From Anaerolineales bacterium (lineage in GTDB: Bacteria > Chloroflexota > Anaerolineae > Anaerolineales > Villigracilaceae), in NCBI GenBank assembly GCA_016744335.1, contig JADGEO010000001.1:1-64000 (forward strand): a DNA stretch of 64,000 nucleotides, given 5' to 3'. The notes below the pieces were generated by a model. The model searched no databases, was not told the DNA's origin, and saw only the letters and a program-made list of their open reading frames with translations. Of this stretch, positions 1-12,087 are shown piece after piece. How positions within the stretch are numbered: the first letter of the stretch is position 1; every line of letters starts with the position of its first letter. Both the position numbers and the translations under genes were made by a program.

Positions 1-444
1 GTTTAGGCTACACCGATATACTTTTTCTCGAAACCTATTTGTATGTCGATGTCTAAAATCAATACTTTGAAGACGCTCGGCAAAAGTATTTTTGCAATGT
101 TCACATGAAAAAATACGAGAGGGGAAGTGAAGGTATGTCCGGTGTTCGCTCATATCTGAATCGCGAACACAGCGAGGTTTTTCTTGATGGATAGTTTCTG
201 AAATACTCTCACATTCTGGGCAAATGGCATAATCGTGATTATGCTCGCTATGTAAATGGAGGATACTTTCTTTCTTACGTTGCTCTATATCAAAATGTGT
301 CATTGTGAATTCTGGCAAATCAACGATAGCATTTAATGTTTTTTGGGTAATACGATTCTTTTCTTGTTTTAGTTCTCTTTGAGAAGAACGAGAAGCGTCG
401 CGAAATAAATTGACTGGAGCAGGAAGCAAAGGTATAGTTGACAT
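1..444 (-). CDS. ISL3-family transposase, N-terminal part (runs off window edge)
   Basis: The reading frame opens with ATG at 444 and stays open to the left edge (148 codons), so only the N-terminal part is present. It carries the paired-cysteine zinc-binding domain typical of ISL3-family transposases: C75-P-E-C78 followed by C114-E-H-C117, with the intervening RCVRDSDMSEHRTYLHFPSR stretch matching the family pattern of an R-V-R-D segment before the second cysteine pair. The catalytic DDE domain would lie outside the window. An inverted-repeat pair sits at and upstream of the start codon (443-502). Just beyond it lies a CHAD gene lacking its N-terminal half, so this element probably inserted into that gene. 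The family call is from motif recognition only. Confidence 0.72.
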   Translation of the reverse strand, partial: MSTIPLLPAPVNLFRDASRSSQRELKQEKNRITQKTLNAIVDLPEFTMTHFDIEQRKKESILHLHSEHNHDYAICPECESISETIHQEKPRCVRDSDMSEHRTYLHFPSRIFSCEHCKNTFAERLQSIDFRHRHTNRFREKVYRCSLN

Positions 445-502
445 ATCGGGTTTCCTTATATTCTGAGTTGTCCAAAACACAGTTTACTTGGAAACCCGAT
501 AT
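443..502. repeat. 13-bp inverted repeat pair at the IS end
   Basis: ATATCGGGTTTCC at 443-455 is exactly complementary to GGAAACCCGATAT at 490-502, 34 bp apart. The inner copy overlaps the transposase start codon. The outer copy probably marks or lies close to the terminal inverted repeat of the IS, since disrupted CHAD sequence follows within about 30 bp. The other end of the element is outside the window, so the terminus and the target duplication cannot be confirmed. The inner copy could also serve as an autoregulatory transposase site. Confidence 0.5.
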
Positions 503-533
503 CTTTCACTTCACCTTTTCATGCTAATTCACG

Positions 534-1325
534 TTGAACCATAATAAAGAACTAAAGTCTATTCGTGAAGGTATACAGCACACAGGGCGCAAATTAGGCA
601 CCTTACGAGATTTAGATGTCTTCTGGGAAAAAACACAAAACTATTTGGATACCTTTCCTCAAGAGCGTCAAAGCGACCTAGACTCACTAAAAAAAATCTG
701 GGAAGAGAAACACAAGAGCACCAAAGAAGAATTAATGGTGTATCTGGATAGTGATTTTTATACACAGCTCAAAGAAAGTTTTGCTAAGTCGTTAAAAAAT
801 GATAGTCTTTGGTCAGAAACGACCTTAACCCAAAATGGCAGAGCCAAACCCCATCGTGTGTGCCATGTCGTGCCGGCCATCATCTACCAACAAATGGCAG
901 GCGTTCTAGCGTATGATGAATGGGTCAGAAATCCCGATGTCTCGTTAAAAGAACTGCATCAACTTCGTATTGCTGGTAAAAGTTTGCGCTATACGCTAGA
1001 GTTTTTTGAAGAGGTTCTCTCCCCTAAAACAGAAGGAGCGATTCTCGAAATAAGAAAACTCCAAGACCATCTCGGAGATTTGCAAGACGCTATTGTTGCC
1101 AGTCAATTTTTACGCAACTTCTTAACCTGGGGTGAGTGGGGGCTTTCAAAAAAAGAGAGAAAAACTTTTCCGCAAGAGCCTATTCTAGCCCCTGGCGTTG
1201 CAACTTATTTGGCAGACAGGCAAGGAGAGCTTTATCGAAAAATGCGCACCTTTCCAGAAGTTTGGGTGTATTTTCAGAGCGATGAATTTAAAAAATTGAT
1301 GGCTGAGATTGTCACAACTTTATAA
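534..1325 (+). pseudogene. CHAD domain protein, N-terminally truncated
   Basis: CHAD domains are helical, histidine-rich domains that bind polyphosphate and usually occur near polyphosphate kinases. The C-terminal half is clear: HQLRIAGKSLRYTLEFFEEV at about residues 143-162, the canonical H..R...K.LRY motif, followed by LQDHLGDLQDAI. The frame begins with TTG (534) just after an in-frame TAA (525-527), in the middle of the domain (GRKLGTLRDLDVFW near residue 20). The first repeat of the domain, with its own H..R motif, is missing. The break lies within about 30 bp of the inverted repeat at the transposase end, so IS insertion is the likely cause. A short functional protein from the TTG is possible but less likely. 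The next genes are two PPK2 and a PPK1, which fits a polyphosphate role. Confidence 0.7.
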
Positions 1326-1371
1326 GAACTTTTGAACAGACAGTAAGTAAATCCACACGAAGAGTGAGAAA

Positions 1372-1392
1372 AAATCTGTGAAATCTGCGGAC
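1372..1392 (+). repeat. Dispersed intergenic repeat (AATCTGCGGA type)
   Basis: AAATCTGTGAAATCTGCGGA resembles short segments at 12993-13020, 16344-16378, 22162-22200 and the pair at 42602-42636/42661-42700. All lie between genes, close to stop or start codons. Confidence 0.45.
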
Positions 1393-1408
1393 AATTATAT
1401 AATTTACC

Positions 1409-1452
1409 AGCACGCAAGTTGAGGGCAAGTTCGTCCCACGTCTTTTCATCCA
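1409..1452 (-). repeat. Dispersed repeat, GGATGAAAAG...GCACGC family (reverse)
   Basis: Read on the minus strand this begins GGATGAAAAGACG and continues to AACTTGCGTGC. It shares the GGATGAAAAG start and the TTG-rich tail with copies at 3156-3203 and 52441-52486, and with the reverse copy at 49820-49863. Similarity is judged by eye and is imperfect. Confidence 0.35.
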
Positions 1453-1486
1453 AAACTGCGAGATAAATACCTAAAAGGAGTTTTCT

Positions 1487-2305
1487 ATGCCGAAAAAATA
1501 CAATCCTAATGGAAAAATAAAAATCGATTATTACGAAGAAGAAATCGCAAAACTTCAGGGAGAGTTGGTCAAATTGCAATACTGGATAAAAGACCAGGGC
1601 TTACGCGTCATCGTCATTTTTGAGGGGCGTGACGCGGCGGGGAAGGGTGGAACCATTCACCGCGTGATGCGTCGCCTGAACCCTCGTATGGTTCGGGTGG
1701 TAGCTTTAGACAAACCCAGCGATTTAGAGCAACGCCAATGGTATTTTCAACGCTATATTGAGCATCTCCCTGCTGAGGGCGAAATGGTGCTTTTTGACCG
1801 TAGTTGGTATAACCGCGCTGGCGTTGAATGGGTAATGGGATTTTGCAAAGAAAAAGAATATAGACATTTTTTGAACGAAGTACCCAATTTTGAACGCATG
1901 TTAGTACGGGATGGAATCATTCTTATCAAATACTGGTTTGAAATTAGCGAAAAAACGCAAGAAGAACGCTTTCAGAGCCGCCACAACGACCCCCGCAAAC
2001 TCTGGAAACTCAGCCCTATGGATTTGAAATCTCGCGCGCTATGGGGCGAGTACTCTAAAGCCAAAGATGCCATGTTTGCCTATACAGACACCAATGAAAG
2101 TCCTTGGCATGTAGTACAGGCTAATGTAAAAAAACACGCTCGCTTAAATTGTATTTCTCATCTACTTTCTATGATTCCTTACCAAGACTTAACGCCTGCA
2201 TCAGTAGAACTTGGAGAGCGTGAGGAAACAGATTATCAACGCCCAGAAACCGAGGCTTATCATTTTGTTCCCCTTGCTTATGGCTCAAAATTTAAAGGTA
2301 ATTAG
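1487..2305 (+). CDS. ppk2: Polyphosphate kinase 2 family protein (canonical copy)
   Basis: PPK2 enzymes transfer phosphate between polyphosphate and nucleotides (ADP/ATP, GDP/GTP or AMP/ADP, depending on class). At 272 residues this is a single-domain PPK2. Walker A is GRDAAGKGG at residues 47-55 and Walker B is LFDRSWYNR with D104, and the family AGVEWVMGF follows. The start has a good ribosome-binding site (AAAAGGAG). It is followed 9 bp later by a second PPK2, then PPK1 and preceded by a CHAD remnant, forming a polyphosphate cluster. Single-domain size fits nucleoside-diphosphate kinase (class I) or AMP kinase (class II) types; sequence alone does not decide which. Confidence 0.9.
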   Translation: MPKKYNPNGKIKIDYYEEEIAKLQGELVKLQYWIKDQGLRVIVIFEGRDAAGKGGTIHRVMRRLNPRMVRVVALDKPSDLEQRQWYFQRYIEHLPAEGEMVLFDRSWYNRAGVEWVMGFCKEKEYRHFLNEVPNFERMLVRDGIILIKYWFEISEKTQEERFQSRHNDPRKLWKLSPMDLKSRALWGEYSKAKDAMFAYTDTNESPWHVVQANVKKHARLNCISHLLSMIPYQDLTPASVELGEREETDYQRPETEAYHFVPLAYGSKFKGN

Positions 2306-2314
2306 GAGAAACCC

Positions 2315-3136
2315 ATGACTACTGAAATAAAATATACAAAAGATGGCGTTATCACCCCTAAAGACTATCAGCGAGAACTACAAAAATTGCAAACGGAAAT
2401 GGTCAAGCTACAATCTTGGGTCAAAGATCAGGGTTTAAGAGTTATCATCCTATTTGAAGGGCGTGATGCGGCAGGCAAAACGACCATGATCAATCAAATT
2501 ACCCAACAATTTAACCCTCGTATCGTTCGCTCTGTGGCGTTAGATGCACCCAACGACAAAGAAAAACGACAATGGTATTTTCAGCGTTATATCAAACATT
2601 TTCCTGCTAAAGGAGAAATGGTTTTCTTCAACCGCAGTTGGTATAACCGTGCTGGCGTTGAATGGGTCATGGAATTTTGCACCGAAGATCAATATAGACT
2701 TTTCCTAAATGAGTGCCCCCAATTTGAGCGGATGCTCGTACGTGAGGGCTTTATTGTCATTAAATACTGGCTCTCCGTGAGCGCAGAAGAACAAGAAAAA
2801 CGTTTTCAAAACTGGATGAAAGATCCCCGAACACGATGGCGCTTTACAGACGTTGATAAAAAAGCCCGTCAAAATTGGGTTTTATATTCTAAAGCTAAAG
2901 ATTCGATGATGGCGCATACTGATATTGACGAAGCCCCCTGGTATATGGTTAATGCCGAAATCCAAGAACACGCTCACTTAAATATGATGGCACATATGCT
3001 CAACTTAGTCACCTACAAAGACCTAACGCCCGAACTAGAGAAACTAGAACCACGTCCAGAAAAAGATACAAATTATGTACGCCCTCCAATGAGTGAACAT
3101 AAATTAGTACCCGAAATTTATAAGAAACCAGAGTAA
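2315..3136 (+). CDS. Second PPK2 family protein, Walker B Asp replaced by Asn
   Basis: A 273-residue paralogue of the gene just upstream, clearly a tandem duplicate. Walker A reads GRDAAGKTT (residues 49-57) instead of GKGG. The Walker B motif reads FFNRSWYNR, with N106 where the first copy and the family have a catalytic aspartate; the codon is AAC in AACCGCAGTTGG. The rest of the fold signature (QWYFQRYIKHFP, YNRAGVEWVMEF) is intact and there is no frameshift, so the gene appears maintained. It may have altered metal or nucleotide handling, or be a regulatory or heteromeric partner of the first copy. RBS AGGAGAAACCC precedes ATG. Confidence 0.85.
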   Translation: MTTEIKYTKDGVITPKDYQRELQKLQTEMVKLQSWVKDQGLRVIILFEGRDAAGKTTMINQITQQFNPRIVRSVALDAPNDKEKRQWYFQRYIKHFPAKGEMVFFNRSWYNRAGVEWVMEFCTEDQYRLFLNECPQFERMLVREGFIVIKYWLSVSAEEQEKRFQNWMKDPRTRWRFTDVDKKARQNWVLYSKAKDSMMAHTDIDEAPWYMVNAEIQEHAHLNMMAHMLNLVTYKDLTPELEKLEPRPEKDTNYVRPPMSEHKLVPEIYKKPE

Positions 3137-3155
3137 AAGAAAACTTATCTTTTAT

Positions 3156-3203
3156 TGGGATGAAAAGCCGCGGCGCACGCGTTTTTTGCTTGGTTGCCCT
3201 CAA
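3156..3203 (+). repeat. Dispersed repeat, GGATGAAAAG...ACGCG family
   Basis: Contains GGGATGAAAAGCCGCGGCGC followed by ACGCG and TTGCTTGGTTGCCC. It matches 52441-52486 closely, and its core is related to 32541-32575, 57974-58013, 22048-22071 (reverse) and 49820-49863 (reverse). Two small hairpins follow, GGCGTGAA/TTCACGCC (3217-3244) and GCCGCACT/AGTGCGGC (3242-3265). They share three bases, so they cannot both form fully. The rest of the 3137-3329 gap shows nothing else. Confidence 0.5.
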
Positions 3204-3329
3204 TTAGCATCTTCTTGGCGTGAAGTTTTTTTTCTGTTCACGCCGCACTTCTGCTTGAGTGCGGCACCCAAGTTTAGGTCAAGTTTCTTTCGCTGAAGTC
3301 TTCCGCTTCCCACCCAAAAGGAAAATCCG

Positions 3330-5450
3330 ATGAGCAAAAATCCAATCTCGCTAGATGATCCTAGCTTATACGTGAACCGTGAGCTAAGCTGGCTTCAATT
3401 CAATCATCGCGTTTTAGAAGAAGCCTTAGACGAAAGCCATCCCTTATTAGAGCGCGTCAAATTTATCTCCATTGTAGCCAATAATCTGGATGAATTCTTT
3501 ATGGTGCGCGTTTCTGGCTTGCGCAAACAATTAGCCGCTGGCGTGCTAAAAACCCCCGCCGATGGCATGACACCCGCCGAGCAATTAGCCGGCATTCGAC
3601 AAAAATTATTGCCCGCCCTAGCCACACAATATAAATGCTGGCACGAAGATTTAATGCCAAAGCTAGAAAAAGAAGGCATCAAAATTTTGCATTATGCCGA
3701 CCTAAAACGCAAACAACGCAAGTTGATGCGTAAACATTTTAAAAAAGAGATTTTCCCTGCATTAACACCTTTGGCTTTTGACCCCCGCCACCCTTTTCCG
3801 CACATTTCTACATTGAGTATCAATTTAGCCGTAGTCATTAACGACCCCATACACGGAAGACGCTTTGCGCGCATCAAAGTACCCGATACTTTTCCACGTC
3901 TTTTGCACATCCCCAGCGAGGAGGAGACAAACGAAGAATACGAAAGTTTAGGTTTGGTGCAAGCAAGTTCCAATAATTTTGTTTGGCTAGAAGAAGTAAT
4001 ACGTGCAAACCTAGATATACTTTTCCCTGGTGTAGAGGTAGAAGATGCCTATCCCTTCCGCATCACCCGTGATGCAGACCCTGAAATAGAAGAAGATGAA
4101 GCCTCCGATTTGCTAGTTGCTATTGAAGAAAGCGTCAGAAAACGTCATTTTGGCTCAACAGTGCGATTAGAAATTGATCAAAGCATGTCTGAGCAGGTAC
4201 GAGAGATACTGATAAATAACCTTAAAATAGCCCCTTATCAGGTTTACGCGGTTGATGGTCCTATTGCATTTTCCCACGTCATGGAGCTAATGAAAATCAA
4301 CCGCCCCGATTTAAAAGATGCCCCTTATACCCCCTTCTTACCTCCCCAACTTTCTACAACTGACGATATTTTTTCTGTTATTCGCAAAGAAAATCTTCTT
4401 TTTTACCATCCTTACGATAGCTTTGACCCTATTGTTCATTTTATTCGCTCTGCGGCACGAGACCCCAAAGTCTTGGCAATCAAACAGACACTCTATCGTG
4501 TAGGACCCCATTCCCCCATCGTTGCCGCACTGATGGAGGCAAGCGAAAACGGAAAGCAAGTGGCTGTCTTGGTTGAACTAAAAGCCCGCTTTGATGAAGA
4601 GAATAATATCGTTTGGGCAAGAGCATTAGAGCAAGCTGGCGTACACGTTGTTTATGGCGTTGTCGGATTGAAAACCCACGCCAAAATTGCCATGGTCGTC
4701 CGCCAAGAAGATGACGGTATTAAACGCTATGTTCATCTCGGAACAGGTAATTATAACGACGTAACCGCACGTATTTATACCGATTTAGGGTTTTTCACCT
4801 GCGACCCTCTTATTGGCTCTGATTTATCAAAATTATTTAACTCCCTCACCGGCTACGCGCGCAATGAAGAATACGAAAAATTACTGGTTGCACCAGGCAA
4901 AATGCAAGCGCAATTTTTAGATTTAATTGAGCGAGAAATAGAACTGCATAAAAAAGATGGGGGTGGATATATCGCCCTAAAAATGAACGCATTGGTTGAT
5001 AAACATATCATTAAAGCACTTTATCGTGCTTCGCAAGCGGGGGTCAAGGTTGACCTTCAGCCACGTGGCGTTTGCTGTTTGCGCCCAAACGTAGAGGGCG
5101 TAAGCGAAAATATCACCGTGACTTCTATTGTTGGACGTTTTCTAGAGCATACACGAATCTATTATTTCCGCAACGGTGGAGAAGAAGAGATTTTGCTCGG
5201 CAGTGCAGACCTCATGCCGCGCAACCTGTACCGCCGTGTTGAAACACTCTTTTCTATAGAAGATGCCCACTTGAAAAAAGCCTTAAGAGACGATATTCTC
5301 AATATACACCTAAAAGATAATGTCAAATCCCACCGCATGTTACCCAATGGTGAATATGAACGCGTAAAACGCAAAACAGGAGAGAAGAAATTCGACTCAC
5401 AGGCTTGGTGTATCAAGAAACGTGGCACATGGCACAGAGAGGAAGCCTAA
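3330..5450 (+). CDS. ppk1: Polyphosphate kinase 1
   Basis: PPK1 reversibly makes polyphosphate from ATP at the inner membrane. The 706-residue length is normal. The N-terminal domain (NRELSWLQFNHRVLEEA) is at residues 16-32. The phospholipase-D-like catalytic half has VGLKTHAKIAMV, with H450 as the phosphorylated histidine, HLGTGNYND, and GRFLEHTRIYYF with the second catalytic His, H607. RBS AAAGGAAAA lies before the ATG. It follows the PPK2 pair after a 193-bp repeat-containing gap, so it may have its own promoter, though none was recognised. With PPK2 it forms a synthesis and utilisation pair for polyphosphate. Confidence 0.95.
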   Translation: MSKNPISLDDPSLYVNRELSWLQFNHRVLEEALDESHPLLERVKFISIVANNLDEFFMVRVSGLRKQLAAGVLKTPADGMTPAEQLAGIRQKLLPALATQYKCWHEDLMPKLEKEGIKILHYADLKRKQRKLMRKHFKKEIFPALTPLAFDPRHPFPHISTLSINLAVVINDPIHGRRFARIKVPDTFPRLLHIPSEEETNEEYESLGLVQASSNNFVWLEEVIRANLDILFPGVEVEDAYPFRITRDADPEIEEDEASDLLVAIEESVRKRHFGSTVRLEIDQSMSEQVREILINNLKIAPYQVYAVDGPIAFSHVMELMKINRPDLKDAPYTPFLPPQLSTTDDIFSVIRKENLLFYHPYDSFDPIVHFIRSAARDPKVLAIKQTLYRVGPHSPIVAALMEASENGKQVAVLVELKARFDEENNIVWARALEQAGVHVVYGVVGLKTHAKIAMVVRQEDDGIKRYVHLGTGNYNDVTARIYTDLGFFTCDPLIGSDLSKLFNSLTGYARNEEYEKLLVAPGKMQAQFLDLIEREIELHKKDGGGYIALKMNALVDKHIIKALYRASQAGVKVDLQPRGVCCLRPNVEGVSENITVTSIVGRFLEHTRIYYFRNGGEEEILLGSADLMPRNLYRRVETLFSIEDAHLKKALRDDILNIHLKDNVKSHRMLPNGEYERVKRKTGEKKFDSQAWCIKKRGTWHREEA

Positions 5451-5494
5451 TATGCTCCACCTCAAGATTATCTTAAATTCGTCAAATTTTATCC

Positions 5495-5523
5495 TTTACG
5501 CTCCCTCCTAGCAGTGATATAAT
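5495..5523 (+). promoter_or_regulatory. Sigma-70-type promoter for rplS
   Basis: TTTACG (5495-5500), a 17-bp spacer and a perfect TATAAT (5518-5523). Initiation near 5530 would give a leader of about 60 nt before the rplS ATG at 5592. Confidence 0.75.
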
Positions 5524-5591
5524 AGCATCTTGCGTTAGACTATAGGAATTATCAAACAAGTTTTAAACAGACAAGTTCTAAAGGAAAGAAA

Positions 5592-5939
5592 ATGAGCGAC
5601 ATACTAAAATCACTTGAAGCACCCATAAATGAAAATATCCCAGAGTTACGCTCTGGCGATATTGTTAATGTTCACGCCCTTGTAAAAGAAGGGGAACGTG
5701 AGCGTGTTCAACAATTTAAAGGCACAATTATCCGTGTCCGAAACAGTGGAAATAATGCCAACTTCACCGTTCGCCGTATCGCCAGCAATGGCGTTGGCGT
5801 AGAACGCACCTTCTTAGCCCGCTCCCCCCGTGTAGAAAAAGTTGTTGTTGAACGTCACTCTAAAGTTCGTCGCGCTAACCTCTACTTCTTACGAGATCGT
5901 ACAGGCAAAAGCGCACGTCTCAAACAGAAATTTAACTAA
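5592..5939 (+). CDS. rplS: 50S ribosomal protein L19
   Basis: L19 sits at the 30S-50S interface of the ribosome. The 115 residues match the family length. The start region has the conserved IPELRSGDIVNVHALVKEG, then VQQFKGTIIRVRNSG, the core VERTFLARSPRVEKVVVERH (about residues 74-93) and the basic C-terminus VRRANLYFLRDRTGKSARLK. RBS AAAGGAAAG precedes ATG. The gene is monocistronic: strong promoter upstream and strong intrinsic terminator 20 bp after the stop. The usual rimM/trmD neighbours are absent. Confidence 0.97.
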   Translation: MSDILKSLEAPINENIPELRSGDIVNVHALVKEGERERVQQFKGTIIRVRNSGNNANFTVRRIASNGVGVERTFLARSPRVEKVVVERHSKVRRANLYFLRDRTGKSARLKQKFN

Positions 5940-5960
5940 AACGCTCTCACTAAATTTTTA

Positions 5961-5995
5961 AAAGGGTACAGTCGCTAAATACTGTACCCTTTTTG
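5961..5995 (+). terminator. Intrinsic terminator after rplS
   Basis: AAAGGGTACAGT, 8-nt loop, ACTGTACCCTTTTT: a perfect 12-bp stem followed by a T run. Confidence 0.9.
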
Positions 5996-6017
5996 TGTCT
6001 TAGGAGTTAAACTTAAG

Positions 6018-6740
6018 ATGGCTTCTCCCATTATTGGCATCACAGCTGGACATTCCCTAAATAAACACGGACTTCCCCAAATTCACCTTTTACGCACCTA
6101 TGTAGATGCAACAATTAGAGCAGGCGGAACGCCCATCATTATCCCCTCCGAATTACCAGAAAACAGCTGGAAATTACTTTATGACAAATTAGACGGCATT
6201 ATTTTCTCTGGTGGCGCAGATATTGACCCCGCAATCTTTCACGGAGACCCTCATCCTACCGTTTATGGTCTAGACCACAAACGTGATACCCTTGAGTTTG
6301 CTCTTTTGCGCCATACAATTGAAGATAAAAAACCCTTCTTTGCTATTTGTCGTGGCTTTCAAATGCTAAATGTTGTCCTAGGCGGCACGCTCTACACACA
6401 TATCAGCGAGCAACTTGCAAACAGCTTAGAACACGATACGCCTAGAAAACACCCTCGTGACAATTATCTTGTTCACGATATTCAAATAGAAGAAGATAGT
6501 CATTTAGCCGAAATTATAGGCACCCCCATCCTTAAAGTTAATAGCTGGCACCATCAAGGCGCAAAAGACATTCCACCCCAACTCAAAATCACTGCGCGTA
6601 CAGCCGATGGATTGGTGGAGGCAATGGAACTTCCTGACCACCCCTTTAGCATCGCCGTTCAATGGCACCCCGAATGGATGCAAGAAGATGAGGCAATGCA
6701 AAAATTATTTAAGGCATTTGTTGAGGCGAGTAGCAAGTAA
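6018..6740 (+). CDS. Class I glutamine amidotransferase-like hydrolase (peptidase C26, PuuD-like)
   Basis: Members hydrolyse gamma-glutamyl amides such as gamma-glutamyl-GABA in the cytoplasm. The 240-residue protein has FSGGADIDPAIFHGDPHP (residues 63-80). The nucleophile elbow is FFAICRGFQMLN with C111, and VQWHPEWMQ near the C-terminus supplies H217 and E219 of the triad. The start follows TTAGGAGTTAAAC. No polyamine or GABA pathway gene is nearby, so the substrate cannot be assigned. It lies between the rplS terminator and murI. Confidence 0.85.
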   Translation: MASPIIGITAGHSLNKHGLPQIHLLRTYVDATIRAGGTPIIIPSELPENSWKLLYDKLDGIIFSGGADIDPAIFHGDPHPTVYGLDHKRDTLEFALLRHTIEDKKPFFAICRGFQMLNVVLGGTLYTHISEQLANSLEHDTPRKHPRDNYLVHDIQIEEDSHLAEIIGTPILKVNSWHHQGAKDIPPQLKITARTADGLVEAMELPDHPFSIAVQWHPEWMQEDEAMQKLFKAFVEASSK

Positions 6741-6823
6741 GAAATTTGCAACTATGTAAATGGCAAGTGAAAACTCTCATTTTCAAAAATCCCTCAATTC
6801 CCTTTGTAGTGAAACACAAAGCC

Positions 6824-6849
6824 AACCGCTAAAGCGGTTACTACGAGGA
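6824..6849 (+). repeat. REP-like palindrome CCGCTAAAGCGG plus TTACTACGAGG tail
   Basis: AACCGCTAAAGCGGTT followed by ACTACGAGGAG. Related units occur at 7654-7680, 21963-21980, 21995-22018, 25670-25694 and, inside murE, 29138-29164. The tail of this copy supplies the GAGGAG that serves as the murI ribosome-binding site. Confidence 0.65.
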
Positions 6850-6856
6850 GCTATCC

Positions 6857-7654
6857 ATGTCGTTATCTAATAACTCTCCCATTGGCATTTTTGATTCAGG
6901 CGTTGGTGGTCTTTCCGTTTTACGCGCTATTCACGCACGTCTTCCCAACGAAAACCTGATTTACTTCGCCGACCAAGCACGCGTTCCTTATGGCTCTCGT
7001 AGCCTCGAAGAAGTACGCGCTTTCTCAGAAGAAATCACTCGTTTTTTACTTTCAAAAGGGGCAAAATTTATTGTAGTTGCCTGTAACACTGCCTCTGCCG
7101 CGGCGCTACGTTGGCTACGCGAATCTATGCCCGAAATCTCTTTTGTGGGGATGGAGCCAGCCATAAAACCCGCTACCGAACAAAGTTATTCTGGCGTAGT
7201 AGGCGTTCTGGCTACACCAGCAACTTTTCAGGGCGAACTCTACAACTCCCTCATTACCCGTTTTGCCGGCAATACAACCGTTTTGCAAGATACTTGTGCG
7301 GGATTGGTAGAGGAGATTGAGCGTGGCGCATTAGACGGGGATAAAGCACGTACTATTTTGGATGAAGCGCTACGAGACATGCTTGACCTTGGGCTTGATA
7401 CCCTCGTATTGGGCTGTACGCATTACCCCTTCGTGATGCCGCTCATTGAGCAAATTTGCGGGGATTCTGTTCACATCATCGACCCTGCTCCGGCGGTGGC
7501 GCGTCAAGTTGAATTCAGGCTCGTCTCGGAAAATGCCAAATCAACGCAAGATGCCAAAGGGAAAATCCAAATTTACACATCGGGAGATGCCAAGAGCCTC
7601 GCGTCCCTCCTACCCAAACTTGGCTTTCAAAATTTCCCCGTAGCAAAAATATAG
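6857..7654 (+). CDS. murI: Glutamate racemase
   Basis: MurI interconverts L- and D-glutamate for peptidoglycan. The 265-residue protein starts with IGIFDSGVGGLSVLRAI (residues 9-25) containing the substrate-binding DSG. The two catalytic cysteines are in VVACNTASAAAL (C76) and VLGCTHYPF (C187). The RBS GAGGAG, 6 nt before ATG, lies within the tail of a REP-like repeat. The gene is convergent with the biotin carrier gene downstream. Together with murE in this window it shows the organism makes peptidoglycan. Confidence 0.95.
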   Translation: MSLSNNSPIGIFDSGVGGLSVLRAIHARLPNENLIYFADQARVPYGSRSLEEVRAFSEEITRFLLSKGAKFIVVACNTASAAALRWLRESMPEISFVGMEPAIKPATEQSYSGVVGVLATPATFQGELYNSLITRFAGNTTVLQDTCAGLVEEIERGALDGDKARTILDEALRDMLDLGLDTLVLGCTHYPFVMPLIEQICGDSVHIIDPAPAVARQVEFRLVSENAKSTQDAKGKIQIYTSGDAKSLASLLPKLGFQNFPVAKI

Positions 7655-7680
7655 CCATGCAATAAAGTGCATGGCTACTA
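7654..7680. repeat. Palindrome between convergent genes (REP-like, possible terminator)
   Basis: GCCATGCA ataaag TGCATGGC TACTA overlaps the last base of the murI stop codon. Stem plus TACTA tail resemble the CCGCTAAAGCGG family, but the stem sequence differs. It may end transcription from either side; there is no long T run. Confidence 0.5.
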
Positions 7681-7707
7681 TATAAAGCTATCTGTCGCTG
7701 ATCTATT

Positions 7708-8205
7708 TCACTCTACACTCAGCATCTTTTGGCGTTGCTCTACGCTATCCCCACCCGAAACCTGAATACGCCCAACAACCCCATCTTGCGGAGATTTTAG
7801 TTCATTTTGCATTTTCATCGATTCTAAGATAAGCAGAACATCACCCTCTTTGACTTCTTGCCCCTCCTCTACAAGAACAGAAACAACCAGCCCAGGCATG
7901 GGGGCTTTTAGGTAAAAAGTGCCAGAAATGGCTTTACTACTGCCAGCCGCGGCACGAAGCCTTCTCTCTCGCTCATCTTCAACTTGACTATTGTAGAGCC
8001 GCCCCTTGATTAGCACTTCGAGGTTATCTTCTCCCTCGTAAACATAGGCTTCGTAAGATTCCCCATCTACAATTAAGGAAAAAATGGGCTGAGATCTAAC
8101 AGATTCAAAATCGACCTCAACTATTTTTCCATTAACTGAAACGTGTTCTTTGTCTATAATTTCTACTTGAAATTCTTTCCCATCTATCGTGGTTATATAC
8201 TCCAT
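7708..8205 (-). CDS. Biotin carboxyl carrier protein of an acyl-CoA carboxylase
   Basis: Carries biotin between the carboxylase and carboxyltransferase subunits. The C-terminal biotinyl domain (about residues 95-165) has APMPGLVVSVLVEEGQEV and the biotinylation motif LESMKMQNE, with K131 as the modified lysine. The N-terminal 90 residues resemble the BT domain of propionyl-CoA carboxylase alpha chains (VDGESYEAYVYEGED). Here it is a separate 165-residue protein rather than fused to the carboxylase. It lies 68 bp downstream of the biotin carboxylase gene as the last gene of the run. RBS GAGG precedes ATG. Confidence 0.9.
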   Translation of the reverse strand: MEYITTIDGKEFQVEIIDKEHVSVNGKIVEVDFESVRSQPIFSLIVDGESYEAYVYEGEDNLEVLIKGRLYNSQVEDERERRLRAAAGSSKAISGTFYLKAPMPGLVVSVLVEEGQEVKEGDVLLILESMKMQNELKSPQDGVVGRIQVSGGDSVEQRQKMLSVE

Positions 8206-8273
8206 TATTTTGCCTCACTTATTCACAGTTTGCCAAAAAAGCAACAAAACTATCTAATTATCTAAGAATGCAA

Positions 8274-9782
8274 CTATTTAGACAATCGCTCCCAGCGAGA
8301 TAGCCATTTCCAATTGCTAGTATCGCGTGCATTGCGGCGCACAACATGCGCCGAGCGTTCGGTCTGTTCGTGTTTGACTAATGTAGCAATAATAGCCGCA
8401 ATATCTAAATGCGTCTCTTTACCTTCAGAAATTTCTTCCATATCAAACTCTTCTTCTACGAAACGAGTATCATACCGCCCCCCTAAAAAGCGATGCGAAT
8501 CCATCATGGTTTGGTGAAAAGGGATATTTGTACGAACACCAACCACCCTATATTCGGCAAGCGCACGCCGCATCCGCAAAATGGCTTGGGCGCGATTTTC
8601 ACCCCATACAATCAATTTCGAAATCATCGAATCATAGTAGGGCGTAATCTCTGTCCCCGAATATACGCCCGTATCTATACGAACACCAGGTCCTGTTGGT
8701 AAAACCGCGTGGGAAATATGCCCTGTAGAAGGCATAAAATTATTATGAGGGTCTTCGGCATTAATACGACACTCAATTGCCGCACCATTTATTTTTATAT
8801 CTTCTTGCGCTAAAGAAAGCTGTCTACCTCTCGCTATCCGAATTTGCTCCATCACAATATCTACACCTGTGACCAATTCCGTAATTGGGTGCTCTACTTG
8901 CAAGCGTGTATTCATTTCAAGAAAATAAAAGTTCTTATCTTTGTCTACTAAACACTCAATTGTGCCTGCGCTCTCATAGCCAACTGCCTTTGCGGCTTGG
9001 ACTGCGACCTCGCCCATCCGCTCGCGAAGTTCCTCTGTCATTGCGGGTGATGGTGCTTCTTCTAATAATTTTTGATGACGTCTTTGTAGTGAACATTCTC
9101 GTTCATTGAGGTGTATCACGTTCCCAAACTTGTCTGCCAAGATTTGTATTTCAATGTGGCGCGCGCCCAAAAGCAGTTTTTCGAGGTAAACATTATCCTC
9201 TCCGAAAGCAGACATTGCCTCACCACGTGCAGAGTTAAGTGCGGATGGCATTTCTTCTATGCTTTTAACCTCGCGCATCCCCTTGCCCCCACCGCCCGCG
9301 GTTGCCTTAATCAAAAGCGGAAAACCAATTTCTGGAGCCAGTTTAAGCAACTCTTCATCACTAAATCTATCTGTGCCTTTGGTGCCGGGCACAACGGGTA
9401 CACCAGCTTCTAGCATTATTTTACGAGCAATGGCTTTATCTCCCATTGAAGAAATAGCAAAAGGGCTAGGACCGATAAACTCAAGCCCTGCATCTTCAAC
9501 TTCCTGAGCAAAAGCGGCATTCTCTGCTAAAAACCCATAACCAGGGTGAATTGCCCCCGCTCCACTTTTTAATGCAATCTCAATTATTTTATCGCCTTTT
9601 AAATAAGATTCGCTGGAGGGTGCAGGACCTAATAAATAAGCCTCTGTCGCATAGCGAACGTGCAAGGCTTGCCGGTCTGCCGTTGAATAAACTGCTACTG
9701 TTTTAATGCCCAATTCACGACAAGCCCGCAAAATGCGAACGGCTATTTCTCCACGATTGGCTATTAATACTTTTGTAAACAT
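8274..9782 (-). CDS. accC: Biotin carboxylase subunit of acyl-CoA (acetyl/propionyl-CoA) carboxylase
   Basis: ATP-grasp enzyme that carboxylates biotin on the carrier protein. At 502 residues it is longer than the E. coli AccC (about 450), with an extra C-terminal tail of about 50 residues. The N-terminus is [20 protein letters not shown], the glycine-rich ATP loop GGGGKGMR is at 163-170, and [11 protein letters not shown] near 290-300 holds the metal-binding Glu and catalytic Arg. RBS AAGGAACG. Linked with the carboxyltransferase (10537-12087) and carrier (7708-8205), it forms a full acyl-CoA carboxylase set. Propionyl-CoA versus acetyl-CoA use is not decided by sequence. Confidence 0.9.
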
Positions 9783-9870
9783 AATTCGTTCCTTGTTTTC
9801 TTGGGCATTTACTGATCTTTTGGTCTAATTGGTCTGCTAGCATACTGGTCTAGTGCACCGCTTCCATCAT

Positions 9871-10518
9871 TCACAACTCCGGCAGGGTCGTTATCTCGTA
9901 ATCTGCTAGCAAACGTTCTAGATAATCAATTTGCACAGAGATTTGTTTTTCGAAGGCTTTTTTTCCGCTTTTCGTTTGCATAAAATCTAACTCAGACACG
10001 CTTCGAAGATATTTCACGCGGCTTTCTACTGCCGCTATAAAATCTCCATACTCTTCTTTCACTAAATCACCCAACTCCAAAGCCGTTCTATAGGTGCTAA
10101 AACGATCTAGCTTATCGGCATCGCTAAGAACTTTTGCTTCTAATATATGAGGGTGCTTGAAACCCGCCTCACCATCTACGTGCGAGGCTATAGCATAACG
10201 GATATTCTTACGCTCAACCTTGGTGTAGCCCAATTTTTTTAGAAATTCTCGCACCATTCTTTCACCAACGCGCCCATGCTCTACCGTATGGCATTCATCG
10301 CTCAACTTGGCAATATCATGCAAAAGACAAGAAGCAATAACCTGCTCAACATTTGCACCTTCTATTTTAGCAAGACGCTTTCCATATTGGGCAACGCGCA
10401 AGGTATGTAGCCAACGATAGGTTAGAGACTCTTTTTCTTGAAGGTTTTCTTTCAACGCTAAATCATTTTTATCTTTAGCATAAATAGCGATATTTTCTAT
10501 TCGGCTCTCAGGATTCAT
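9871..10518 (-). CDS. HD domain phosphohydrolase
   Basis: 215-residue HD-superfamily protein. H38 in WLHTLRVAQYG, then ASCLLHDIAKLSDEC with the HD pair near residues 68-69, and a further His in IASHVDGE form the expected metal site. Such proteins hydrolyse nucleotides or related phosphates; the substrate cannot be read from this sequence. It sits 18 bp downstream of the carboxyltransferase gene and about 90 bp upstream of the biotin carboxylase, so it is co-transcribed with the carboxylase. The functional link, if any, is not evident. Confidence 0.8.
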   Translation of the reverse strand: MNPESRIENIAIYAKDKNDLALKENLQEKESLTYRWLHTLRVAQYGKRLAKIEGANVEQVIASCLLHDIAKLSDECHTVEHGRVGERMVREFLKKLGYTKVERKNIRYAIASHVDGEAGFKHPHILEAKVLSDADKLDRFSTYRTALELGDLVKEEYGDFIAAVESRVKYLRSVSELDFMQTKSGKKAFEKQISVQIDYLERLLADYEITTLPEL

Positions 10519-10536
10519 TATTTTCCATTCAACATT

Positions 10537-12087
10537 CTACAGGGGGATATTGCCATGTTTCTTCGGCGGATTAGAGTCACGCTTATTACTAAGCATTTCT
10601 AGTGCATTAATTAAACGTGGACGTGTATTGCGTGGCTCAATTACATCATCGAGATAACCACGCCCTGCGGCGACGTAAGGATTGGCGAATTTCTCGCGAT
10701 ACTCCTCAACTAACTCCGCTTTACGTGCTACAGGGTCATCTGCCTCTGCTAGTTCCTTGCGGAAAATGATATTAACGGCACCATCTGGTCCCATCACCGC
10801 AATTTCAGCGGAGGGCCAGGCAATATTCAAGTCGCCGCGAATATGCTTGGATGACATCACATCATAAGCACCCCCATAGGCTTTTCGCGTAACAACCGTT
10901 AATTTTGGCACAGTTGCTTCACAATAGGCATAAAGTAGCTTTGCGCCAGACCGAATAATGCCACCATGCTCTTGTACGGTGCCAGGCAAAAATCCAGGAA
11001 CGTCTTCAAAGGTAATAACTGGGATGTTGAAAGAATCGCAGAATCGGATAAATCTTCCAGCTTTCTCTGAGGCTTCTATATCTAATACACCAGCTAATAC
11101 TGCTGGCTGATTGGCGACAACGCCTACAGAGTGACCACCGAGACGGGCGAACCCCACCACGATATTCATTGCATAGCTAGAATGGATTTCGAAAAACTCA
11201 CCGCTATCCATCACACGTTGAATGATTTCCTTCACATCATAGGGCTTGCTAGGGTCATCTGGGATGATTGTATCTAAGTCTTTATCTCGGCGCAAAGGGT
11301 CATCTCCATTGGGCACAAAGGGTGGGTCTTCCATATTATTTTGCGGTAAATAACCAAGTAACTTTCGAATCAAATAGAGTGTATCTGCTTCACTATCGGC
11401 GGCAACATGACAAACACCAGATACTTCTGAATGAACGCTTGCTCCTCCCAAATCTTCAAAAGAGACATTTTCGTTGGTCACGGCTTTTACAACATCAGGA
11501 CCCGTCACAAACATATAAGACGAATCGCGCACCATAAAGATAAAATCGGTTAAGGCTGGCGAATAAACCGCGCCGCCCGCACAGGGTCCCATAATGGCTG
11601 AGATTTGTGGAACAACACCGCTCGCTAGGGTATTGCGAAGAAATATATCGGCGTAGCCGCCCAAAGCAACAACACCCTCTTGAATTCTCGCTCCACCAGA
11701 GTCATTTAATCCAATAACAGGCGCACCATTTTTAATTGCCATATCCATTAATTTAACAATTTTTTCTGCGTGAACTTCTCCAAGACTGCCGCCAAGTACG
11801 GTGAAGTCTTGAGAAAAAACATAGATTAAGCGTCCGTTTATTGTTCCCCATCCTGTAACCACGCTATCGGTCATAAATTTCTTTTTATCTAAACCGAAGT
11901 CAGTTGTTCGGTGAACAACAAAAGGGTCTAATTCACGAAAAGAGCCTTTGTCTAATAATAAATCGAGGCGTTCGCGCGCAGTTAAGCGTCCTTTTTTGTG
12001 CTGGACTTCAACGCGGGCTTTTCCACCTCCTACACGGGTTTGGACTTTCAAATCTCGAAGTTCTTGTATTTTAGAGTTATCTGTCAT
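10537..12087 (-). CDS. pccB: Carboxyltransferase (beta) subunit of acyl-CoA carboxylase, PccB type
   Basis: Transfers carboxyl from biotin to an acyl-CoA. The 516-residue protein contains both crotonase-like halves. The N-terminal half has [14 protein letters not shown] and the oxyanion-hole stretch [16 protein letters not shown]. The C-terminal half has [20 protein letters not shown] and [15 protein letters not shown]. This organisation is that of propionyl-CoA carboxylase/methylmalonyl-CoA carboxyltransferase rather than split AccA/AccD. It is first of the four carboxylase-associated genes and follows a small membrane protein gene by about 20 bp. RBS GAGAG. Confidence 0.92.

Follow-up and report, generated by a model that had tools for sequence, protein, structure and literature searches.

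A conserved class I PPK2 paralogue whose Walker B site carries Asn, encoded beside a normal PPK2 in Anaerolineales, as a candidate non-catalytic subunit

Introduction

Class I PPK2 proteins such as FtPPK2 of F. tularensis and SMc02148 (PF03976, TIGR03707) follow the rule of an Asn after the Walker B motif, and the review that states this rule also describes PPK2 proteins as dimers to octamers, with oligomers the norm, and calls the effect of oligomeric state on PPK2 activity unclear (PMC8776046). According to the same review, alanine at K66, R118, or R178 weakened polyphosphate (polyP) binding and cut activity in FtPPK2. Batten et al. propose that polyP is bound by Arg174, Arg178, Lys184, Lys228, and Arg232 (PMC4748334).

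Altered PPK2 units are known in two settings. The FtPPK2 mutant D117N (PDB 5LLF, polyphosphate bound according to its title) is an engineered single mutant in which the metal-binding Asp of Walker B is replaced by Asn and the polyP channel is intact. The two-domain class II PPK2 PA3455 (PDB 3CZP) keeps a non-catalytic unit beside an active one, with the two fused and the inactive unit first. More generally, dead paralogues are known to activate other enzymes (PMC5201418, PMC3663545). Here we analyze PPK2-N, a natural class I paralogue that carries the same Asp-to-Asn change as D117N, has also lost channel residues, and is always encoded beside a normal copy.

Results

PPK2-N is an intact class I paralogue with a substituted Walker B motif

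The window (the whole stretch of DNA analyzed, 64,000 nucleotides from an Anaerolineales bacterium) encodes PPK2-N within a polyphosphate operon, with the following features:

534..1325, + strand: C-terminal CHAD part of the CYTH-HD/PpxIII-CHAD gene, the first operon gene, which an ISL3-type element interrupts at the contig edge
1487..2305, + strand: PPK2-D, a normal class I PPK2 and the presumed catalytic partner
2315..3136, + strand: PPK2-N, the class I paralogue in which Asn takes the place of the Walker B Asp; putative non-catalytic subunit or regulator
2459..2485, + strand: Walker A of PPK2-N, GRDAAGKTT, residues 49-57; tail in the five orthologues GKTT, GKTA, GKTE, GKTE, and GKGG
2630..2632, + strand: N106 codon AAC, shared by all five orthologues; the residue corresponds to Asp117 of F. 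tularensis PPK2
2801..2842, + strand: lid segment, residues 163-176; from active PPK2 to PPK2-N, R163 is kept, R167 becomes W, K173 becomes T, and K176 becomes R
2963..2977, + strand: residues 217-221, which form the second basic cluster; PPK2-N has Q,E,H,A,H and active PPK2 has K,K/R,x,A,R
3330..5450, + strand: PPK1, polyphosphate kinase 1, the next operon gene

The PPK2-N open reading frame encodes 273 aa from an ATG preceded by AGGAGA, lies 9 nt beyond the PPK2-D stop, and specifies a protein 56% identical to PPK2-D; used as a query against its own genome, PPK2-N matched only itself and PPK2-D. The diagnostic motifs are FEGRDAAGKTTM and MVFFNRSWYNRAGVE in PPK2-N and FEGRDAAGKGGT and MVLFDRSWYNRAGVE in PPK2-D, with Walker A and Walker B reading GRDAAGKTT and FFNRSWYNRAGVE in the former and GRDAAGKGG and LFDRSWYNRAGVE in the latter. 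A gapless alignment places N106 opposite Asp117 of F. tularensis PPK2. Both proteins match the PF03976 profile over its full length (297 bits for PPK2-N, 340 bits for PPK2-D), PPK2-N exceeds the cut-off of the class I profile TIGR03707 (315.1 against 301.8 bits), and the class I Asn signature follows Walker B as YNRAG, with N111 invariant in all 103 rows of our alignment. The P-loop Asp and Lys (D62 and K66 of FtPPK2) are kept in all five known copies. PPK2-N is an intact class I PPK2 paralogue of the usual class I length. The initial annotation had recognized it as an intact tandem paralogue and had correctly identified the replacement of its Walker B Asp by Asn; the change of the Walker A tail from GKGG to GKTT that it also described is present in the window copy and varies among the orthologues. 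The predicted PPK2-N model (pLDDT 94.6) superimposes on FtPPK2 with a Z score of 33.0 and an rmsd of 1.3 over 226 residues, which shows only fold compatibility because the alignment behind the model contains D-form rows.

The Asn is shared by five genomes

We searched for orthologues in overlapping sets of genomes. Among 152 genomes of the window's family there was one further orthologue, 97% identical (G036), and 400 genomes drawn from the larger group at order level added G214, G195, and G298, which belong to another family and are 79-80% identical. No further orthologue appeared in samples of 396 genomes drawn from the class and 400 from the phylum, or in 21 genomes of the second family; the next matches in these searches scored at most 417 bits, against more than 600 for orthologues. 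The PPK2-D/PPK2-N pair occurs in two of nine genomes of the window's genus and three of ten of a second genus. That the pair is known from these five genomes only counts against the pseudo-PPK2 reading.

All five orthologues, the window's included, encode Asn with the codon AAC within FFNRSWYNRAGVE. Since the four other genomes share it, the Asn is not an error, and we rejected a sequencing or assembly fault on this ground. The P-loop tail is GKTx in four of the five copies, and G214 combines GKGG with Asn; the Asn is therefore fixed and the tail is not, and the Walker A change was discarded as the defining event.

Loss of the metal ligand is accompanied by losses in the lid and polyP channel

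To locate the changes within the protein, we aligned 103 sequences: 5 PPK2-N copies, 4 paired D copies, 73 other D forms, and 21 members of a group with a GKDG P-loop, described below. The other-D and GKDG rows were those with enough sequence near the motif, the latter taken as every third of the first 80 pattern loci. The Walker B site is Asn in 5/5 N copies and Asp in 77/77 D-form rows. Of 58 columns invariant among those 77 rows, six carry a substitution in every N copy (L96F, D106N, R167W, K176R, S178T, and K217Q/P/A). As a control, 69 columns are invariant in the other D rows, and the paired D clade departs from 3 of these; a single D row departs from 0.30 columns on average and from 4 at most.

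We next considered the 22 basic columns, defined as at least 85% Lys or Arg in the D and GKDG rows. Charge is lost in every N copy at five of them (61, 167, 173, 217, and 221), and four of these five are proposed polyP binders, of which five residues were testable (hypergeometric P = 0.003). In FtPPK2 numbering, Arg178 is replaced by Trp, Lys184 by Thr, Lys228 by Gln, Pro, or Ala, and Arg232 by His or Gln in all five copies, and Arg174, Asp62, Lys66, and Arg118 are kept; the lid Arg pair R174/R178 is accordingly broken, with R174 in place and R178 Trp in 5/5. Two further residues named in PMC4748334 behave differently: His76 is not conserved among D rows, and Lys229 falls below the 85% limit and is Glu in 5/5 N copies. 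Retention of Arg163 and Lys55, which lie near the phosphate path, counts against a non-catalytic reading.

The D117N mutant of FtPPK2 was reportedly made because it is inactive. A dead polyP-binding decoy of the D117N kind is made less likely by the loss of basic channel residues in PPK2-N. Judged from the residues lost and the published mutants, PPK2-N on its own would very probably carry out no polyP phosphotransfer. The initial annotation had taken the rest of the protein to be intact and in frame; the frame is indeed intact, but at the residue level the lid and the polyP channel are changed, and because more than one site has been lost its reasoning needs correcting.

The pair sits in a polyphosphate operon of variable surroundings

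Gene order in G036 and G195 is CYTH-HD/PpxIII-CHAD, PPK2-D, PPK2-N, PPK1; G298 shows the first three of these genes before its contig ends; and the window shows the final part of the CHAD gene followed by PPK2-D, PPK2-N, and PPK1. G214 holds PPK2-N and PPK1, with a partner damaged at the contig end (a 144 aa ORF, 71% identical over 104 aa). A normal PPK2 thus precedes PPK2-N in all five genomes, counting the contig-end remnant of G214, and PPK1 is the next gene in four of the five, those in which the contig is long enough. The flanks of the operon vary, with rplS in the window and G036 and MttB-type genes in G195, where MttB-family methyltransferase genes bracket the operon on both sides (L199:25-1479 and 8442-9977). 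Two genomes of the second genus, G183 and G206, have a single PPK2 in a different gene setting, and PPK1 is found in three of the nine genomes of the window's genus. Paired PPK2-D copies are 78-86% identical between the two families and about 65% identical to single D copies. From the distribution of the pair and PPK1, the varied flanks, and these identities, the operon block looks like one unit that was gained or lost together, and transfer of the block is likely.

Positions 1-534 of the window carry an ISL3-type transposase that splits the CYTH-CHAD gene, whose parts lie at two contig ends (the other at the end of contig C97 of genome G000, L274) with a 19-base inverted match; the gene is intact in G036, G195, and G298. 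Scans of positions 1200-5700 for promoters and terminators found no excess over shuffled sequence (6 against 9.3 and 5 against 4.9, respectively), and Rfam gave no match within positions 1-12000.

A single duplication gave the pair, and both copies are under purifying selection

A tree of 54 rows, from which the G214 partner fragment was left out, supports the N clade (100/100), the paired D clade (100/99), and their sister relationship (99/93), with the GKDG clade separate (99/99) and stem lengths of 0.56 for N and 0.31 for paired D. Because the N and paired D clades are sisters and the GKDG clade stands apart, the tree indicates that one tandem duplication gave the PPK2-D/PPK2-N pair and that the Asn arose independently of the GKDG group.

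YN00 estimates of dN/dS between the window and G036 are 0.0195 for PPK2-N, 0.047 for PPK2-D, 0.053 for PPK1, and 0.126 for the CHAD part, an order that NG86 reproduces. The G195-G298 comparison gives 0.041 for PPK2-D and 0.051 for PPK2-N, which shows that PPK2-N does not evolve more slowly in every case. These ratios indicate purifying selection on both copies. The comparison of the pair in relatives that the initial annotation had proposed yielded four further genomes with PPK2-N and constraint on both genes, and its view that the gene is maintained rather than decaying is borne out by the open frames in five genomes and the window-G036 ratio.

A widespread Asn form elsewhere carries a new P-loop Asp

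When 84,980 species genomes were scanned for the exact motif, at least 119 stretches were returned; the scan required RAG after RSWYN, and other Asn forms could escape it for that reason. All 119 matches listed, and one viral contig, encode PPK2. Among the matches listed, 118 distinct stretches show both motifs: 117 combine GKDG with Asn, GKDG accompanying Asn in 117/117 distinct Asn stretches, and one, a neighbor gene, combines GKGG with Asp. Kin loci gave 85 cases of GKGG with Asp. Because the P-loop Asp and the Walker B Asn are strictly coupled, it looks as if the metal ligand has moved from Walker B to the P-loop in this group, which may well be active; all 21 of its aligned members keep basic residues at Ft178, Ft228, and Ft232.

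This class I group is large, spans Proteobacteria and Campylobacterota (L052-L171), and includes Caulobacter vibrioides. One beta-proteobacterial contig (L084:2575-4365) carries the two forms in tandem, a GKDG/Asn gene with a normal GKGG/Asp PPK2 immediately after it. This tandem is of independent origin, and among the matches listed it is the one stretch with an adjacent normal copy. Another GKDG/Asn PPK2 comes from a contig that IMG/VR classifies as viral (L171:13181-13948).

PPK2-N shares the Walker B Asn with this group but belongs to another clade, has P-loops of GKTT, GKTA, GKTE, GKTE, and GKGG, and lacks the polyP residues that the group keeps; the five window-type copies are the exceptions that have Asn without the P-loop Asp of GKDG. 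Membership in the GKDG/Asn group was rejected by motif and tree. The initial annotation had counted a common Asn form against its own proposal: the form is indeed frequent among class I PPK2 proteins from Proteobacteria and Campylobacterota, where, however, GKDG accompanies it; GKDG is absent here.

Class II pairs provide a parallel with different losses

Adjacent genes that look like a split two-domain class II PPK2 occur in the window's own bacterial order. Among the loci examined they are present in at least 18 genomes of the window's family and in three from other families (tandems at L017-L031, L035-L042, and L206-L208). In each, a pseudo gene (FEGWAATGKGRL) precedes a DRSWYGR gene. In the first gene FEGW(A/S) replaces the P-loop Asp, with FEGWD kept as an exception in G156, and Walker B reads DTSWYRR in the aligned pairs. 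In six of six aligned split pairs, the first gene has Leu at R178 and Thr at K184, lid losses that it shares with PPK2-N; unlike PPK2-N, it has lost the P-loop Asp and the Walker B Arg and kept the Walker B Asp. Counting PPK2-N/PPK2-D as well, this lineage has on two occasions retained an apparently inactive PPK2 gene beside an active one. PPK2-N differs from the two-domain class II proteins in being encoded, with PPK2-D, by two genes 9 nt apart, in the Asn rather than Gly after Walker B of both copies, and in belonging to class I, being unfused, and having an independent origin.

Discussion

Our analysis favors the reading that PPK2-N is a non-catalytic pseudo-PPK2 that most likely joins PPK2-D in a mixed oligomer and modulates the active subunit, an interpretation to which we give somewhat better than even weight. 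PPK2-N arose by tandem duplication of the adjacent class I gene. It has lost the Walker B metal ligand plus the lid and channel residues that grip the polyP chain, and has retained its fold and class I signature along with the Asp and Lys of the P-loop. A mixed oligomer is suggested because PPK2 proteins form dimers to octamers and the two paralogues share a fold; heteromer formation and regulation are proposed from linkage and from the precedent of the inactive unit in two-domain class II PPK2, and PPK2-N might serve as a nucleotide-occupied regulatory subunit. The initial annotation had offered a regulator or heteromer partner alongside a changed substrate preference. The former is the best remaining reading, whereas a change of preference alone is unsupported since several polyP- and lid-holding residues were lost along with the metal ligand.

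The position of the gene between PPK2-D and PPK1, with PPK1 next in the four genomes whose contigs are long enough, fits a free-standing regulator or scaffold for PPK1, the CYTH-CHAD protein, or polyP granules instead of PPK2-D. We regard this as improbable: the lost polyP-binding residues speak against a granule binder, and oligomers being the rule among PPK2 proteins (PMC8776046) favors PPK2-D as the partner.

As a P-loop, GKTT is more usual than GKGG, so PPK2-N may have some NTP-linked activity. It could be a thymidylate-kinase-like enzyme, acting as an NTP-dependent kinase or NTPase, with the polyP channel lost and a canonical GKT loop. GKTx in four of five orthologues, the retained catalytic P-loop Asp and Lys, the dTMP kinases that come next among fold matches of the model, and a weak NCBIfam dTMP kinase match (TIGR00041, residues 43-81, 21.1 bits) are consistent with it. 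That match lies far under its cut-off of 83.25 bits, however, G214 with GKGG and Asn shows that GKT is not fixed, and all five copies lack both the Walker B Asp and one conserved lid Arg, which leaves the proposal unlikely.

Equally doubtful is an active polyP kinase whose Asn still binds metal, with altered kinetics or metal preference. Within the GKDG group, Asn at this site is both widespread and conserved and presumably supports metal binding, but that group gained a P-loop Asp (117/117 distinct Asn stretches among the matches listed) and is still basic at Ft178, Ft228, and Ft232 (21/21); PPK2-N has neither, and the two Asn groups lie apart in the tree. A decaying gene or sequence artifact, for which the lost catalytic residue might speak, is very improbable given an Asn common to five genomes, open frames, a dN/dS of 0.0195, and a conserved operon place; decay was rejected on the frames and that ratio.

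Returning to the pseudo-PPK2 reading, a conserved protein of this kind is known from class II and was not met in class I within the literature searched. That literature contained no recognized enzyme assay of a natural Asn PPK2, and by title and abstract no report of a PPK2 heteromer or natural Asn PPK2 was recognized in it; passages from PMC2923150, PMC13250506, PMC6537752, PMC7595981, and PMC12172448 do not settle either question. More tentatively, and somewhat short of an even chance in our estimate, the pair may be a hetero-oligomeric class I PPK2 of catalytic and pseudo-subunits, in which the nucleotide state of a polyP-blind, possibly nucleotide-binding subunit would determine how fast, or in which direction, polyP is used; such an assembly would have arisen independently of the class II inactive domain, with the same lid positions lost.

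PPK2-N represents a second, independent case in which lid Arg178 and Lys184 were lost in a retained PPK2. For annotation it matters that the Walker B Asn alone cannot separate a dead PPK2 from the GKDG group. As a natural, conserved, and co-encoded pair of active and pseudo-PPK2, PPK2-D and PPK2-N would make the question of how oligomeric state affects PPK2 activity testable by co-expression.
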